A DNA stretch of 64,000 nt from a bacterium (GTDB lineage: Bacteria > AUK180): the NCBI GenBank assembly GCA_023144005.1, contig JAGLGN010000022.1, forward strand, positions 73,003 through 137,002, given 5' to 3'. How positions within the stretch are numbered: the first letter of the stretch is position 1; the number at the start of each line of letters is the position of its first letter. This document shows, in pieces, positions 4,979 through 11,785 of the stretch. Position numbers and translations under genes: made by a program. The notes beneath the pieces are model-generated. The model did not search any database, was not told the DNA's origin, and saw only the letters and a program-made list of their open reading frames with translations.

Positions 4979-6727
4979 ATGAAAAAGGCATTTTTAATTG
5001 CTTTATTGTTTGTTTGCCTGATCTCTGGAGCATTTTCATTTGAGATTATTGTCTCTGATTCACGGACCGATTCTATTTCAAATAAGATCAGATGGCCGGA
5101 TGACCTGAAAGAGCTCGAGCCCGGGCTTGCCGGGTTGGATCCATCATTTTACGGTGAGGGAGGAGTTTTGTTTCTTTCCACTCCCGGACTTTCTTCGTCG
5201 CATACCTCGATTATTTTCAATTCATTGATAATTAATGATCCCGCAAACGGTACGGTAGACCTTTCGACCCTGCCCCCCTGGATGTTGGGGTTGGCGAAAA
5301 TAATTAAAGATGACACATCTTCCGCGGCCGGGTCTCAGGGCCTTGGAGGTGCGCTGATCCTTTCGGGAAGGTCTCCACGCCTTCCAGGTATTGAGATCTT
5401 CATGGATGTGAATTCCTTTCGACTTACATCTTATCTCCCTGCGCATACCGCATTGGGGACAGTCGTTTTCTGGTATTCCTTAAAAGAGGGCGGGGATAAT
5501 AGGGCCAATAGCGCCCATCTTACGCAAGATCTGTCCCTGACCTTTGATCTCAAGGGACCATTGTATGTAGGAGTTTCCAGCAATCGGACAGATATGGGCA
5601 CGCCCGGCCCTGTGCCGTCAGCCGAATATTATCAGGACGATTATACAGGGCCTACGTCACTTTATCCCGAAAATACATATTCAGGTGATGTCAACAGGAT
5701 CATTGTTTCTTATATGACAGAAACTTTCTCTTCGGACCTGCTCTTTGAAAGCAAATATCAGGAATACCTTTCATACTACTACGGCTCACCATATCTATCC
5801 GTTCTTGAGGATGATTTTATTAAATTTTCCATTGCGGGTGAATTGCAAAGCCAAGGCGATCTGGCTTTGAAGGGAAATTTCGCGGTGGATTCTCAGAATT
5901 ATAACGGCAAAAAGCATTCGGCGGCACATATGACGCTTAATACTGTTTCCTCGCTCACAGGTTTAGGGCTGATGGTGAAATCCGATCAGGAATTGATAAG
6001 AAACAGGAATCATATCTCATGGAAATTCTATTGGCAGCCCCAACTGGAGGATATCGATCTGAATGCGTCGTTATCCTATGGTATCAAATTGCCTTCATTG
6101 AATGATCTGTATTTTGATTACGGCGGCAATGAGCAGCTGCTTCCCGAAAGGGGATATTCATTATTTCTTTCTGCCTCTTATAAGGCATTTAATCTGGAGT
6201 ATAAATACCTTGACATAGACAAAATGATACGATGGGTCGAAACCGATCCAATTAATTATCTCTACTCCGCCGAGAATTCCGAGCGTATCAGTAATCATTC
6301 AGTGACCCTTGGCTTCCGGTATCAATTCAAAGATATCTGCATAGAGAATACCACGATATTAACGGCAGGCAAGCGTCATCAGGGAGATTTCGAAACAGTT
6401 AATGAGGACCTGTATCAGGGCCTCCTCAGGACACCGCTTTTCAAGAATGTTTCAAAAATAAGTTTTCACAGGGGGCGATTTTCGGCTATTCTGACGCATC
6501 TTTACAAAAGTAGTGAGACGAATATTTATTACAATTCCATGGAAAAGATCCTTCCCGCCATGGGTGTTTCGGATTTCAAGCTCTCTTATGATATCGGCCA
6601 CGGCGCAATCACTTTAGGCGTGAAAAATCTCTTTGATCTTAACGGAGCGATGGAATTCGGCGATTCGTTTTATGACGGGGACTATCCGATGAAACGCCGT
6701 ACTTTCTTTGCTGAGTTCTCATTATGA
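4979..6727 (+). CDS. btuB: TonB-dependent outer-membrane receptor, BtuB-like
   Basis: A 582-residue outer-membrane receptor, short for the family (about 600-700). It has a signal peptide (residues 1-21), a plug domain (about 30-130, including a GLGGALILSGR ending) and then a beta-barrel of alternating aromatic-rich strands ending KRRTFFAEFSL, where a terminal aromatic/Leu strand is expected. The cobalamin riboswitch directly upstream and the btuF-C-D genes downstream identify vitamin B12 or another corrinoid as the substrate. TonB/ExbB/ExbD are not in the window. The ATG at 4979 follows GGAGG by six bases. Its last four bases overlap the next gene. The barrel sequence is diverged, so the call rests on plug, ending and context. 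Confidence 0.85.
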   Translation: MKKAFLIALLFVCLISGAFSFEIIVSDSRTDSISNKIRWPDDLKELEPGLAGLDPSFYGEGGVLFLSTPGLSSSHTSIIFNSLIINDPANGTVDLSTLPPWMLGLAKIIKDDTSSAAGSQGLGGALILSGRSPRLPGIEIFMDVNSFRLTSYLPAHTALGTVVFWYSLKEGGDNRANSAHLTQDLSLTFDLKGPLYVGVSSNRTDMGTPGPVPSAEYYQDDYTGPTSLYPENTYSGDVNRIIVSYMTETFSSDLLFESKYQEYLSYYYGSPYLSVLEDDFIKFSIAGELQSQGDLALKGNFAVDSQNYNGKKHSAAHMTLNTVSSLTGLGLMVKSDQELIRNRNHISWKFYWQPQLEDIDLNASLSYGIKLPSLNDLYFDYGGNEQLLPERGYSLFLSASYKAFNLEYKYLDIDKMIRWVETDPINYLYSAENSERISNHSVTLGFRYQFKDICIENTTILTAGKRHQGDFETVNEDLYQGLLRTPLFKNVSKISFHRGRFSAILTHLYKSSETNIYYNSMEKILPAMGVSDFKLSYDIGHGAITLGVKNLFDLNGAMEFGDSFYDGDYPMKRRTFFAEFSL

Positions 6728-7497
6728 AAAAACTTGCGTTAATCTGTATTTTGATCTTCGGCGTTTTGGGGTATTCGAGTGGAATTGTATCACTTGCTCC
6801 GAATATTACAAGAATGCTCATTGACCTGGGATTAAAAGAACAGATCATAGGCACTGTATCCTCGGGAAACACCTTTGCCGCCAATGTCGGTACCTTTGCC
6901 ATTCCTGAACTGGAAGAGGTCCTTAGGCTGAAGCCCCGCTTGGTTTTCTATACGGGAATTATTCAAGAACCCTTAGGAAAAAAATTGAAGGACCTTGGCC
7001 TGGAAGGTAAACGCATATATATTTCCTCTGCCGAAGAATTGAGATCCGCCTATATGGAATTGGGATCGATCACAGATACTGAAACGAAAGCGCACCAGAT
7101 CATCCTTCAAATTGATCGAACGCTCTCGGCTTTTAAGATCGGCAGTCCGCTGAAGGTGATCCTTCTTCTCTGGTCGCGGCCGTATTACTCCTGCGGGCCG
7201 GAAACATTTATAGGTGAACTGATCTCTGTTTCCGGTATGGAGAATGTATCGCAAGTATCCAAAGGGCGCTATGCTATCATTTCCGCAGAGACATTGATAA
7301 GATCCCGTCCGGATATTATCATAATATGTGCTGAAGATCATGACGCGGTAAGAAATCTACTTCTGAAAGATCCGGTTATCAAGGGGAGCGGCTTGATCGA
7401 TAATCTCAGAATAATTGTTATAGAAGAAGCTGCGAAGGTGCTTCAGCCCTCGCTTGATGCGCTTGAGGTCTGGGAAAAGCTCTTGAATGAGATCTAA
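6724..7497 (+). CDS. btuF: Corrinoid ABC transporter substrate-binding protein, BtuF-like
   Basis: A 257-residue periplasmic binding protein of the helical-backbone metal/corrinoid type. It has a signal peptide (about 1-20), then VSLAPNITRMLIDLGLKEQIIGT, the hallmark opening of BtuF/FhuD-type proteins, then ELEEVLRLKPRLVFY and, in the second lobe, ETFIGELISVSGMENV and ISAETLIRSRPDIIII. It would hand corrinoid from the receptor to BtuC. The start overlaps the receptor stop (ATGA) and the end overlaps btuC by 11 bases, so translation is coupled. Slightly shorter than E. coli BtuF. Confident. Confidence 0.9.
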   Translation: MKKLALICILIFGVLGYSSGIVSLAPNITRMLIDLGLKEQIIGTVSSGNTFAANVGTFAIPELEEVLRLKPRLVFYTGIIQEPLGKKLKDLGLEGKRIYISSAEELRSAYMELGSITDTETKAHQIILQIDRTLSAFKIGSPLKVILLLWSRPYYSCGPETFIGELISVSGMENVSQVSKGRYAIISAETLIRSRPDIIIICAEDHDAVRNLLLKDPVIKGSGLIDNLRIIVIEEAAKVLQPSLDALEVWEKLLNEI

Positions 7498-8431
7498 TAT
7501 ATTCAGAATTCTCTTCTATCTTTGCTTTCTTGCTCTCATCCTCTTATGTCTTTTTTGGGGGCTCTCCGCCGGAGAAGGCTATATACTCCTTGCCGTGCGG
7601 CTCCCGAATCTTCTGGTCGCGCTTATTTCCGGCGCGTCATTAGGCCTTGCGGGGGCGTTGTCGCAGATGATCTTCAGAAATCCATTGGCGGATCCGTATA
7701 TATTGGGCGTCTCCGCCGGTTCATCGGCAGGTATCTCTCTTGCCTTCCTTACAGGCGCATATACGCTTTTAGGATATTTTTCTATATTCATTCTATCCTT
7801 TTCCGGCGGCATCTTCGCTCTTCTGGTAATATTTTCGGTCTATTCCGCTTCCCGTAGAAAGGATACGGTGATATTGCTTCTTTCCGGAGTGATCTTCGGC
7901 TACATAGCGGTGTCTCTTACCTCATTGATCCTGTCGAATCTGGAAGGCAATATTATTTTTTCCCTGACCGAGTGGCTCTTTGGAACCACCGCATTCTTTG
8001 ATATGACGATCATAGGTATCTTTGCCCTTCTTCTTTTAGTGGTGATCATTATATCCCTGATGCGGCATCGTTCATTGGACCGTATGTATCTTTCAGACAA
8101 GAAGATGCTTTCCCTGGGAGAGGACCCCATCGCCAATAGAAAATTCTTTTTCTTTCTCATAGCTCTGCTGGTTTCATTTTCGGTTTCCGTTACGGGGATC
8201 ATCGGCTTTTTGGGCTTGATCGCTCCCCATATCGCCCGTCGCCTGAAGGGATCAAATGCTAAGTCCATGATCCCGTTGTCTGCCATTACGGGAGCATTTC
8301 TTCTTACCGCCGCCCATTTGCTTTCACTGATAGTGAAGGGGATCAGAGTCCCTGTCGGTATAAGCATCTCGCTTATGGGGGGGATATATTTTATCATTCT
8401 GCTGAGGAGGGGATATGCTTCTGAGATTTGA
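7487..8431 (+). CDS. btuC: Corrinoid ABC transporter permease, BtuC/FecCD family
   Basis: A 314-residue FecCD-type permease with about nine or ten membrane helices. RLPNLLVALISGASLGLAGALSQMIFRNPLADPYILGVSAGSSAG is the family signature (given here by position, residues about 29-75, key residues R, P, G, NPLADP, GxSxG). The later segment FLGLIAPHIARRL is the cytoplasmic coupling loop that contacts the ATPase. It overlaps btuF at its start and btuD at its end (17 bases). It forms the membrane channel of the importer. Slightly shorter than typical (about 325-340), at the N-terminus. Confidence 0.92.
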   Translation: MRSNIFRILFYLCFLALILLCLFWGLSAGEGYILLAVRLPNLLVALISGASLGLAGALSQMIFRNPLADPYILGVSAGSSAGISLAFLTGAYTLLGYFSIFILSFSGGIFALLVIFSVYSASRRKDTVILLLSGVIFGYIAVSLTSLILSNLEGNIIFSLTEWLFGTTAFFDMTIIGIFALLLLVVIIISLMRHRSLDRMYLSDKKMLSLGEDPIANRKFFFFLIALLVSFSVSVTGIIGFLGLIAPHIARRLKGSNAKSMIPLSAITGAFLLTAAHLLSLIVKGIRVPVGISISLMGGIYFIILLRRGYASEI

Positions 8432-9083
8432 TAAGGTACATTTGAAGAGGGGCGGCTTTACTTTTTTTCTGGACAGAATATTCCCGGATTCAGGTATGAT
8501 CGGCTTAGCGGGTCCGAACGGCAGCGGGAAGAGTACTTTAATGGATCTCGCCACCTCCATCGTGAAGCCGTCTTCAGGTATAATTTATTACGATGAAGAT
8601 AAATTGAGTACCATTGCCACGAATTGTTTCCCCGATATTTTTTCCTGTATGTATGCCGGTGAAGAGCCCTTCGGCGGGTTTTCAGGCGCGAAATATATTG
8701 ATATTCTCTCCTCGATCCCCGAAGCTTCAGCCGCCGCGGCGGAAAGATTTCCCGTTATCCGGCCTTTTCTGCACCGTGATATCCGAGAATTGTCCCGTGG
8801 TCAATGGGTATCATTGCTTCTTTCCTCATTACTTATCGTTTCCAGCCGGATTTTATTTATCGACGAATACATGCTCTTTCTTGACCCCTATCACCGGGAA
8901 TTATGGACGGATCATCTGAAAGATCACGCAAAGACAGCGCCGGTATTCATTATCACACATGAAACAGGATTCCTTTATGAGAAATGCGATAATGTTCTTG
9001 GCCTGAAGAACGGCCGTGAGATGTTCTGGGAAAAAGCCTCCGCTCTTGACGGCTCAATACTCAAAGACCTCTATCACCCCTGA
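8415..9083 (+). CDS. btuD: Corrinoid ABC transporter ATPase, BtuD-like
   Basis: A 222-residue ABC ATPase paired with BtuC. Walker A is GPNGSGKST (residues 33-41), Walker B ends in FIDE (Asp150, Glu151) and the H-loop is THE (His182). The signature motif reads LSRGQ (126-130) instead of LSGGQ, with Arg for the first Gly. The protein is shorter than usual (about 250), with a compact N-terminal strand pair and C-terminus. Last gene of the riboswitch operon; the following gene has its own promoter. The altered signature may lower activity but the other catalytic residues are intact. Confidence 0.88.
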   Translation: MLLRFDKVHLKRGGFTFFLDRIFPDSGMIGLAGPNGSGKSTLMDLATSIVKPSSGIIYYDEDKLSTIATNCFPDIFSCMYAGEEPFGGFSGAKYIDILSSIPEASAAAAERFPVIRPFLHRDIRELSRGQWVSLLLSSLLIVSSRILFIDEYMLFLDPYHRELWTDHLKDHAKTAPVFIITHETGFLYEKCDNVLGLKNGREMFWEKASALDGSILKDLYHP

Positions 9084-9135: not shown

Positions 9136-10002
9136 ATGGATAATAATGCGTTAGGATTCGTTGAAGCTAAGGGCATCACAGGTGTGGTCGAAGCCCAGGA
9201 CCGTCTTCCGAAAACAGGGAATATCCAATTTCTAAATCTTTTACCTATCGGCGGCGGTCATGTGATCACCGTATTTAAAGGCGGCTTGGCCGAATTGCAA
9301 TATGCCCTGGATTCAAATTATGATCCCGAGAAGAAGCATTCTTCAATATACATGGCAAAGGTTCTTGAGGGTCCCCATCCTGAGATCCTGGATATTGCCT
9401 CTGATAATGTTCCCGATAAGAGAGCTGCTCTACAGGGCTCTGCCATGACTATCATTGAAACGCGCGGCTATGTGTCAATGGTCATTGCCGCTGATACCGC
9501 ATTAAAGAGCGGTGATGTGTCCGTTTCCAATTGGCTTTCTATTGGCGGCGGCATTTCTGCTGTCGTTCTTCGTGGCGATGTTGCTTCATGCCGTTCCGCA
9601 ATGGAAAACGCTACCGCTGCGGTCGCTGAAGAGTACAGGTACGCATCGGTTATCATAGAGAATCCGCATGAGCAGATCGATCTCAAAACTCCCGTATTTT
9701 CATCAGTCAGATTAAAAAAGGGCTCAGGCAATTTCATCAAAGGTACTGCTACCGGGCTGGTGGAGACACGCTCATTCGCAGCATTGATATTTGGTCTGGA
9801 CCGCGGTCTGAAGTACGGCGATACGAAACTTTCATCTGTACATAAGGTCGGTTCAACATATATCTCAGGTGTCTTCAAGGGTGAGGTCTCCGAGATACAG
9901 TCCAGTGTCAAGGCCGCTTCGGAGGGAATCAATATGGTGAAATCCACCGAGGGTTCGCTGATCCTGCCCAATTCCCATGAGGATGTCCACAGGATAGTCT
10001 GA
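9136..10002 (+). CDS. Protein of three tandem BMC (microcompartment shell) domains
   Basis: A 288-residue protein made almost entirely of three BMC domains. Domain 1 is about residues 5-84 (opens ALGFVEAKGITGVVEAQD, has IGGGHVITVFKG, closes EGPHPE). Domain 2 is about 103-182 (AMTIIETRGYVSMVIAAD, IGGGISAVVLRGDVA, ENPHEQ). Domain 3 is about 205-284 (ATGLVETRSFAALIFGLD, VGSTYISGVFKGEVS, PNSHEDV). Linkers of about 20 residues join them. BMC-H shell proteins have one domain and form hexamers, and BMC-T have two and form trimers. Three in one chain would give a pseudohexamer as a dimer; that last step is my inference. No encapsulated-enzyme genes lie nearby. The gene ends in TGATG shared with gmk. 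No signal peptide. Ribosome site GCGAGG precedes the ATG. Confidence 0.85.
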   Translation: MDNNALGFVEAKGITGVVEAQDRLPKTGNIQFLNLLPIGGGHVITVFKGGLAELQYALDSNYDPEKKHSSIYMAKVLEGPHPEILDIASDNVPDKRAALQGSAMTIIETRGYVSMVIAADTALKSGDVSVSNWLSIGGGISAVVLRGDVASCRSAMENATAAVAEEYRYASVIIENPHEQIDLKTPVFSSVRLKKGSGNFIKGTATGLVETRSFAALIFGLDRGLKYGDTKLSSVHKVGSTYISGVFKGEVSEIQSSVKAASEGINMVKSTEGSLILPNSHEDVHRIV

Positions 10003-10628
10003 TGCTGCCGGAAAAAGAATATTCATATGAAGCAGGTTTTTTAGTCGTTCTGACCGCCCCGTCCGGTGCGGGTAAAACCACCATACGAGAGGGAGTTCTC
10101 AAATCCCATCCAGAAATAATGTATTCAATTTCGGCTACGACCCGTCCCAAGCGGGATGATGAGAGCGACGGACAGGACTATTTCTTTGTTTCCCAGGATA
10201 AATTTGTGGAAATGATAGAGAATGATGAAATGATCGAATGGGCAAAGGTGCATGATCATTATTACGGCACCCCAAAGAATTTCATTAAGGAAAATATACG
10301 GAAGGGTTTAATAATTATCATGGATATCGATGTTCAGGGCGGAGTGAATATCAAAAAGCGTTTTCCCGACGCTGTCTTCATCTTTGTACTACCTCCTTCT
10401 TTTGAGGAGCTGGGACAGCGGTTGATAGAAAGGGGTACCGATACCATGGAAACGATTAAATTACGGGTAGAGAACGCTCGTAAGGAGATCGGCCTCATGT
10501 ACAATTACAATTACATCATTGTGAACGATGATATTAATCTGGCGATCCTTGAAACGGAATCCATTATCATTGCCGAGAAGTGCCGTGTTTCAAGAAATGT
10601 TGACTTTTATAAAGAGTATTTGAAATGA
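10002..10628 (+). CDS. gmk: Guanylate kinase
   Basis: A 208-residue guanylate kinase (GMP + ATP to GDP + ADP). Walker A is APSGAGKTT (19-27), followed by SISATTRPKRDDESDGQDYFF (by key residues: S-x-TTR-P-R...E-DG-DYFF, the GMP-binding segment) and MIEWAKVHDHYYGTP. Length is standard. The ATG overlaps the stop of the triple-BMC gene in TGATG, so ribosomes probably re-initiate from that gene. It has no obvious strong ribosome site of its own, only CAGGATAG upstream. It overlaps coaBC by four bases. In many bacteria gmk is followed by rpoZ and coaBC; here rpoZ is missing from the slot. Confidence 0.95.
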   Translation: MLPEKEYSYEAGFLVVLTAPSGAGKTTIREGVLKSHPEIMYSISATTRPKRDDESDGQDYFFVSQDKFVEMIENDEMIEWAKVHDHYYGTPKNFIKENIRKGLIIIMDIDVQGGVNIKKRFPDAVFIFVLPPSFEELGQRLIERGTDTMETIKLRVENARKEIGLMYNYNYIIVNDDINLAILETESIIIAEKCRVSRNVDFYKEYLK

Positions 10629-11785
10629 AAATAGTAATTGGTATCACTGGCTCCATTGCTGCTTATAAAACCAATACAGTGATCCGTGATCTGGTGAAGA
10701 AGGGTCATTCGGTCGCGGTGATACTTACGGAGTCTGGAATGAAGTTCACATCCCTTCTAACCCTTAATACATTCGCAACAGAAGGTGTTTATACTGATAT
10801 ATTCGACGAAACTATTGAACAGCCAATTCACATCCGGCTTGCCGGATGGGCTGACCTGTTGTTGATCGCGCCCTGTTCGCTGAATACGATATCAAAGATG
10901 AGCTCCGGCATTGCGGACAACCTCTTATTGGCCACCTATTTTGCATTCAGAGGCCCGGTTATGATAGCTCCCGCTATGAATGACCGTATGTATGAAAATC
11001 AGGTGAATAGAAGAAATTTACAAAGAGTTATGAAAGACGGAGTGATCCAGATCCCGCCAAGATACGGGGATCTTGCTTCATATGATTCCGGACGCGGTCC
11101 TATGGCGCAGCCCGAAGTAATAGTTGAAGAAGTTGAAAATCATATGAATTACTCCTCCGATCTTGCTGGAAAGAAAGTCCTGATCACCGTTGGGGGGACG
11201 ATGGAAAATATCGATCCTGTCAGGGTCATATCCAACCTTTCCACAGGCAGTATGGGTTATGAGACCGCTTTGGCTTTTTATAGAAGGGGTGCTGAAGTCA
11301 CCTTGATCACATCCGTTGTCCGGCCCGTTCCTTCTGATATTGCGATCATCAAAGCGCTTTCTTGCGCGGATTTTTTCAAGGCGGTGAAGGCCGAGTTTAG
11401 TTCCACGGGTATCTTCATTTCCGCCGCGGCGATCTCTGACTTTATCCCTGTGGAAAATAAGCAGAAGATAAAGAAGAAAGATTTTACAGGGAAATTGGCC
11501 TTTAAAAAGGCGAACGACATACTCGCATGGGTATTGAAAAATCGTAAAAAGAGACAGAAGATCATCGGTTTTGCCGCCGAAACAGATCTTTCAAAGAATA
11601 ATATAGAAGAGAAGATGAGATCAAAAGAAGTGGATATCCTCTTTGTCAATCTTATTTCCAACCGATCGGGTTTTGGTGATAAGCCCGTTACCGGGAAGAT
11701 AATATCTGGAAAACGCATAATTGAGATGGAGGGGATTACTAAGGCAAAAGCGGGGCAATTGCTCTGTGACCTTGCGCAAGGATAA
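10625..11785 (+). CDS. coaBC: Phosphopantothenoylcysteine decarboxylase/synthase CoaBC
   Basis: A 386-residue bifunctional CoaBC for coenzyme A synthesis. It has an N-terminal FMN-dependent decarboxylase (CoaC, about 1-175) and a C-terminal ligase (CoaB, about 185-386). CoaC has GSIAAYK (9-15), the catalytic His69 in PIHIRLAGWAD and PAMN with Asn119. The usual LACGDxGxGRM loop reads LASYDSGRGPM (150-160), so the cysteine that reduces the aminoenethiol intermediate is Ser152. CoaB has SNLSTGSMG (usually SNRSSGKMG), AAAISDF and KIKKK, and ANDIL in place of NPDIL. It is therefore a diverged copy. It sits between gmk (four-base overlap) and rarA (two-base gap). Family certain; full decarboxylase activity is open to doubt. 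Confidence 0.88.
   Translation: MKIVIGITGSIAAYKTNTVIRDLVKKGHSVAVILTESGMKFTSLLTLNTFATEGVYTDIFDETIEQPIHIRLAGWADLLLIAPCSLNTISKMSSGIADNLLLATYFAFRGPVMIAPAMNDRMYENQVNRRNLQRVMKDGVIQIPPRYGDLASYDSGRGPMAQPEVIVEEVENHMNYSSDLAGKKVLITVGGTMENIDPVRVISNLSTGSMGYETALAFYRRGAEVTLITSVVRPVPSDIAIIKALSCADFFKAVKAEFSSTGIFISAAAISDFIPVENKQKIKKKDFTGKLAFKKANDILAWVLKNRKKRQKIIGFAAETDLSKNNIEEKMRSKEVDILFVNLISNRSGFGDKPVTGKIISGKRIIEMEGITKAKAGQLLCDLAQG

Follow-up and report, generated by a model that had tools for sequence, protein, structure and literature searches.

A single chain of three BMC domains, encoded as a satellite gene and predicted to form half of a microcompartment shell tile

We analysed a 64,000-nucleotide stretch of bacterial DNA (contig JAGLGN010000022.1 of assembly GCA_023144005.1, positions 73,003 to 137,002 of the forward strand), called the window below, which is part of contig C15 of a genome (G000) of 2.67 Mb and 96% completeness. 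The window contains an intact gene for a protein with three consecutive bacterial microcompartment (BMC) domains, located between an uptake operon and the genes gmk and coaBC (Table 1). In an earlier note made from the sequence alone, the domains had been read at about residues 5-84, 103-182 and 205-284, and a local hidden Markov model search confirmed all three. Comparison with Pfam using hmmscan matched the protein to PF00936 (E=2.3e-41, 140.1 bits) in three separate stretches, and in a PF00936 profile search of the genome these scored 64.3, 47.1 and 37.6 bits, each above the curated cut-off of 24.5 bits. The protein thus belongs to the PF00936 family by its three matches and its predicted BMC fold (see below). 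The BMC-H class is defined by exactly one such domain and a homohexamer, and the BMC-T class by exactly two domains; the window chain and its homologues have three. A sequence search of the PDB returned as the best match 6ner, an engineered tandem BMC-H protein (E=1.1e-20), followed by the BMC-T protein 3nwg across residues 5-181 and many BMC-H proteins.

Table 1. The triple-BMC gene, its domains and its neighbours; positions refer to the window, and domain limits are those of the local hidden Markov model, converted from the 295-residue open frame.
Feature	Position	Strand	Remarks
Triple-BMC shell protein gene	9136..10002	+	Open reading frame of 288 amino acids, ATG start; PF00936 matches
BMC domain 1, residues 4-84	9145..9387	+	Edge lysine K26; pore loop PIGGGH
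BMC domain 2, residues 103-181	9442..9678	+	Edge lysine K124; pore loop SIGGGI
Domain 2-3 linker, residues 182-204, low confidence	9679..9747	+	Predicted local distance difference test (pLDDT) <50 at residues 189-197
BMC domain 3, residues 205-284	9748..9987	+	Edge lysine K226; pore loop KVGSTY
gmk (guanylate kinase)	10002..10628	+	Start overlaps triple-BMC stop; adjoins the triple in 4/4 family genomes carrying it
coaBC (DFP flavoprotein)	10625..11785	+	Conserved second neighbour
ABC ATPase, FecCD/BtuCD-type uptake operon	8415..9083	+	Operon ends just upstream of the triple; outside the genus not conserved there

Genomes were searched for further three-domain chains and for their neighbours, as had been proposed in the earlier note. 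Homologues of the window protein were found in its own family f1, with 99.7% (G001), 52% (G003) and 44% (G004) identity, and in each case gmk and coaBC follow immediately. When named genomes were scanned, three-domain chains were detected in Candidatus Sumerlaeota (L049, L050), and a search of 40 Sumerlaeota genomes yielded five intact triples (G098, G099, G125, G118 and G101) and one interrupted by contig ends (G100). Among 386 genomes, mostly one per family, triples were present only in four members of f1 and two of family f134 (G178 and G315). A plasmid search returned only ordinary BMC-H and BMC-T proteins among the matches listed. The triple is therefore rare, but it is present in three lineages, and the intact three-domain frames in three other f1 genomes and in independent genomes from two further lineages exclude an artefact of assembly, of reading frame or of chance.

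The three domains share 22-30% identity with one another and up to 60% with the same-numbered domain of relatives, and on these grounds a recent duplication within the gene was rejected. The edge lysine through which shell facet proteins make tile-tile contacts is kept in every domain of the nine triples compared (27 of 27). The pore loops of domains 1, 2 and 3 are NISGSF, TIGGGY and KVGSAM in f134 and DINGGY, WIGVGY and KVGSAL in the Sumerlaeota genome G098; in f134 and in the Sumerlaeota triples, domain 3 has also kept the PRPH motif near the C-terminal edge. In comparison with the same-genus genome G001, the ratio of nonsynonymous to synonymous substitutions (dN/dS) of the triple was 0.017, the lowest among 15 compared genes, which indicates strong purifying selection on its sequence. 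The dS value itself (0.09) was lower than those of the two direct neighbours (0.21 and 0.31), perhaps as a result of high expression.

Whether the triples of the three lineages go back to one fusion was examined by a leave-group-out test, in which profiles of domains 1, 2 and 3 built from two lineages were scored on the third. The same-numbered domain scored best in 26 of 27 cases. Because the domains match one to one between lineages, the triple appears to be one old three-part protein. In a maximum-likelihood tree, all domain-1 sequences formed a single clade (bootstrap 99) and the third domains of f1 and f134 grouped together (bootstrap 92); in an earlier tree, from which the bridging family f134 was missing, the three long branches of the window protein had been drawn together. 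The leave-group-out result and the domain-1 clade make an independent fusion in each lineage unlikely. By profile as well as by tree the domains are BMC-H-like, lying outside the clades of BMC-T domains 1 and 2, and an origin from BMC-T is therefore unsupported by the trees.

Possible relatives of the unfused state were found in Opitutales (Verrucomicrobial) and in G105 and G120, where separate, closely spaced BMC-H genes occur, near PTAC and aldehyde dehydrogenase (AldDh) genes where the surroundings were read. The first of these genes is the sister of the domain-1 clade (support 90), and in another the pore loop is KVGSAL, as is typical of domain 3; domain 2 is without a clear single-gene sister in the tree. 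The simplest reading of these sequence relationships is that three BMC-H paralogues which shared one disc became fused into the triple. The spaced BMC-H genes themselves (L051 and L060 in Opitutales, L129 in G120, L105/L123 in G105) have clearly different pore loops, for example QIGGGY, SVGSGL and KVGSAL in L060, and PTAC, AldDh and BMC-P genes lie nearby in L051, L060 and L129. Such sets are candidates for natural mixed hexamers. Chains with two BMC-H-like domains were also seen (L011/L166 in G053 and L165 in G237, open frames of 315 and 280 amino acids); both domains of the G053 chain fall outside the BMC-T clades, and these chains are perhaps independent tandem BMC-H fusions.

Structures of two divergent members, the window protein and a Sumerlaeota protein, were predicted as single chains with AlphaFold, template-free and from six-sequence alignments. 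For both, the BMC fold was predicted (pLDDT 84.7 and predicted template modelling score (pTM) 0.85 for the window protein, pLDDT 80.7 and pTM 0.81 for the Sumerlaeota protein). Domains 2-3 of the window model superimposed on the BMC-T chain 5dii_D (Z 21.4, 2.2 Å, 186 residues) and its domains 1-2 on the BMC-T protein 3nwg (Z 17.6, 2.9 Å, 176 residues), and domains 1-2 of the Sumerlaeota model superimposed on 5dii_B (Z 22.5, 2.0 Å, 181 residues). Neighbouring domains of the triple are thus predicted to be placed like the two halves of a BMC-T subunit. Because two BMC-T-like steps then follow one another around the six-fold axis, one chain would form half a disc, and from this modelled geometry two chains would be expected to close a six-domain pseudohexamer, in line with the two-copy assembly that had been suggested from the sequence.

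The earlier note had stated that no other microcompartment genes are present in the window. This holds for the 64-kb window itself, where searches for PF00936, PF03319 and PTAC revealed no further BMC genes, but not for the genome. A single run of genes on contig C33 (L037) encodes PTAC, BMC-H, BMC-P, AldDh, an RnfC-like protein, BMC-T, RpiB (PF02502) and a second BMC-P. Because PTAC, AldDh, RpiB and the shell genes match the published sugar phosphate utilisation (SPU) type, which is thought to use DNA breakdown products (PMC8217296), we call this locus SPU-like. Just beyond it lies a gene (L037:6350-7708, G000:C33) for a secreted endonuclease I that carries a fibronectin domain and a Por-type C-terminal sorting signal, which fits the use of extracellular DNA. 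A third BMC-P gene stands alone on contig C2. This lone gene (L136:10017-10337; G000:C2:48037-48291) overlaps the start of a YmdB-like phosphodiesterase gene, which is followed by genes for an IPP transferase and a GTPase. The triple therefore co-occurs in its genome with BMC-P and cargo enzymes, and because the complete SPU-like locus, with AldDh, PTAC, RpiB, BMC-H and BMC-P, sits on another contig, the triple on C15 qualifies as a remote satellite shell gene as PMC8217296 uses the term. The SPU-like locus is retained in every f1 family member. In f134, the triple of G178 occurs together with PTAC, BMC-H, BMC-P, AldDh and RpiB, and in G315 only a BMC-T was seen beside it.

In the Sumerlaeota genomes G118 and G101, BMC-H and BMC-T are present in addition to the triple. 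In G098, G099 and G125, by contrast, the three domains of the triple are the only PF00936 matches genome-wide, and each of these genomes encodes three BMC-P proteins and one PduL-type PTAC. The absence of other BMC-domain proteins is suggestive only, as the completeness of these draft genomes is unstated and two of them, G098 and G099, are closely related. With three BMC-P and no BMC-domain protein found other than the triple, these genomes may specify facets that are built from the triple alone.

Taken together, it is likely that the triple is a satellite-encoded facet tile of a microcompartment shell with two chains per disc. Each chain would place three BMC wedges side by side in a 180-degree arc, and two chains would form a six-domain disc with two-fold symmetry, as large as a BMC-H hexamer or a BMC-T trimer and able to tile with either by way of the edge lysine conserved in every domain. 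The pore of this disc would be lined by three different loops, each occurring twice. The fusion would fix the order and ratio of three unlike subunits that otherwise assort freely, and would create a pore unlike the one in the main hexamer. In the window organism, the triple would be a minor tile that tunes passage through the shell of the SPU-type compartment (deoxyribose or ribose phosphate); we infer dimerisation, incorporation into the shell and an effect on permeability. In f1 and f134, beside ordinary BMC-H and/or BMC-T, the triple probably tunes permeability or edges, whereas it may serve as the main tile in some Sumerlaeota. Only tentatively do we extend this to the wider proposal that the triple represents a third, natural fusion class forming a two-chain pseudohexamer and is, in some Sumerlaeota, the sole facet protein of a shell made entirely of two-fold dimers and pentamers.

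Several observations weigh against a role as a two-chain facet tile. AlphaFold was trained on BMC-T structures, so the predicted domain arrangement may partly be memory. In f1, the equivalents of the PRPH motif are degenerate (EGPH, ENPH and PNSH), and the neighbours gmk and coaBC offer no functional hint. Moreover, the f1 genome G002 (96% complete) has the SPU locus and the gene order gmk-coaBC-rarA but lacks the triple, which is therefore dispensable for possessing an SPU compartment. At the position occupied by the triple in its relatives, directly upstream of gmk, G002 carries an IS200-like transposase gene (L168:567-1463); in G005, YicC is encoded there and is the probable ancestral neighbour.

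Part of the evidence would also fit a variant of BMC-T, in which domains 1-2 form an ordinary trimer and domain 3 stands outside the disc as an additional, exposed module that binds cargo, cytoskeleton or another tile. After the synthetic tandem, the best whole-chain match in the PDB was the BMC-T protein 3nwg over the first two domains, the linker before domain 3 is long and of low confidence, and the third domains of the window family lie on the longest branches. However, domains 2-3 of the window model pack as BMC-T halves at least as well as domains 1-2, domain 3 retains its edge lysine and pore loop, and the domains group with BMC-H and not with the BMC-T clades. Such a variant is distinctly unlikely. 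An adaptor or seed tile, which would join unlike tiles through six non-equivalent edges, for example beside BMC-P or at facet edges, and would govern shell size more than permeability, is unlikely. It would be in keeping with three different edges that each occur twice, with degenerate PRPH motifs that vary between domains, and with a low copy number from one satellite gene, but genomes with the triple alone imply that use as a bulk tile is also possible.

We regard as very improbable a use of the fold outside shells, as a soluble regulator or metabolite binder tied to nucleotide or CoA metabolism. A regulatory or non-shell function had been hinted at in the earlier note, and it would account for the constant distance of the triple from the main shell locus and for its fixed position upstream of gmk and coaBC in the window family. 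However, the genes beside the triple are others in each of the remaining lineages: f134 has MnmA and phosphatidylserine decarboxylase, G118 has a DUF374 protein and an FtsA-like protein, and no conserved neighbour genes were found around the Sumerlaeota triples. As the pairing with gmk and coaBC was not seen beyond the window family, a functional tie to these genes was rejected. Also weighing against the hint are the complete SPU-type locus and the third BMC-P in the same genome, the hexamer-edge lysines kept throughout, and the three Sumerlaeota genomes in which a BMC-P triplet is accompanied by no BMC-domain protein other than the triple. The operon upstream of the triple (4979-9083) encodes an outer-membrane-receptor-like protein without Pfam match, a periplasmic binding protein, a FecCD permease and the ABC ATPase, and possibly serves the uptake of cobalamin or a siderophore.

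With the triple, the series of tiles of one domain (six chains) and two domains (three chains) would be extended to three domains (two chains), completing the divisors of six. A three-domain chain determines in which order three different subunits surround one pore, and would offer a single-gene route to the question of how mixed pores and unequal edges affect the permeability and shape of shells. It would be the counterpart in nature of engineered concatemers, as well as a simple part for shell building. Should some species use it as their sole facet protein, the rules for a minimal shell need widening, as facets would require no six-fold or three-fold symmetric building block.

The architecture had been noted as not known to be described, and this provisionally stands: a literature search for three-domain BMC chains, with subscription journals and supplements largely outside its coverage, found no description. 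A 2021 catalogue covering over 40,000 shell genes distinguishes six classes, namely BMC-H, permuted BMC-H, three kinds of BMC-T, and BMC-P (PMC8217296), and a three-domain class is absent from its main text and from those of the 2014 taxonomy and of BMC Caller. The triple resembles the satellite shell genes and the FRAG and SPU types of that catalogue in its distance from the main locus, in the BMC-P triplet and in the SPU enzymes, but the six classes include no protein of its kind. With BMC-T proteins (3nwg, 5dih and PduT 3pac; two fused PF00936 domains, trimeric pseudohexamers), it shares the fusion of domains and a predicted similar packing of adjacent ones; it differs in its third domain, hence in two chains per disc instead of three, and in domains that group with BMC-H. 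Like the subunits of BMC-H hexamers (PduA, EutM, CcmK), each of its domains is BMC-H-like, with an edge lysine and a pore loop, but three unlike domains are joined covalently in a fixed order. The synthetic tandem BMC-H of Haliangium ochraceum (6ner) is likewise a concatenation of BMC-H domains, but it is engineered from two identical domains, whereas the triple is natural and its three domains are distinct. Hetero-hexamers of BMC-H paralogues exist in CcmK3/CcmK4 and CsoS1A/B (PMC11606499), and these also combine different BMC-H subunits in one disc, as is predicted for the triple; their ratio is set by expression and affinity, that of the triple by the chain itself.
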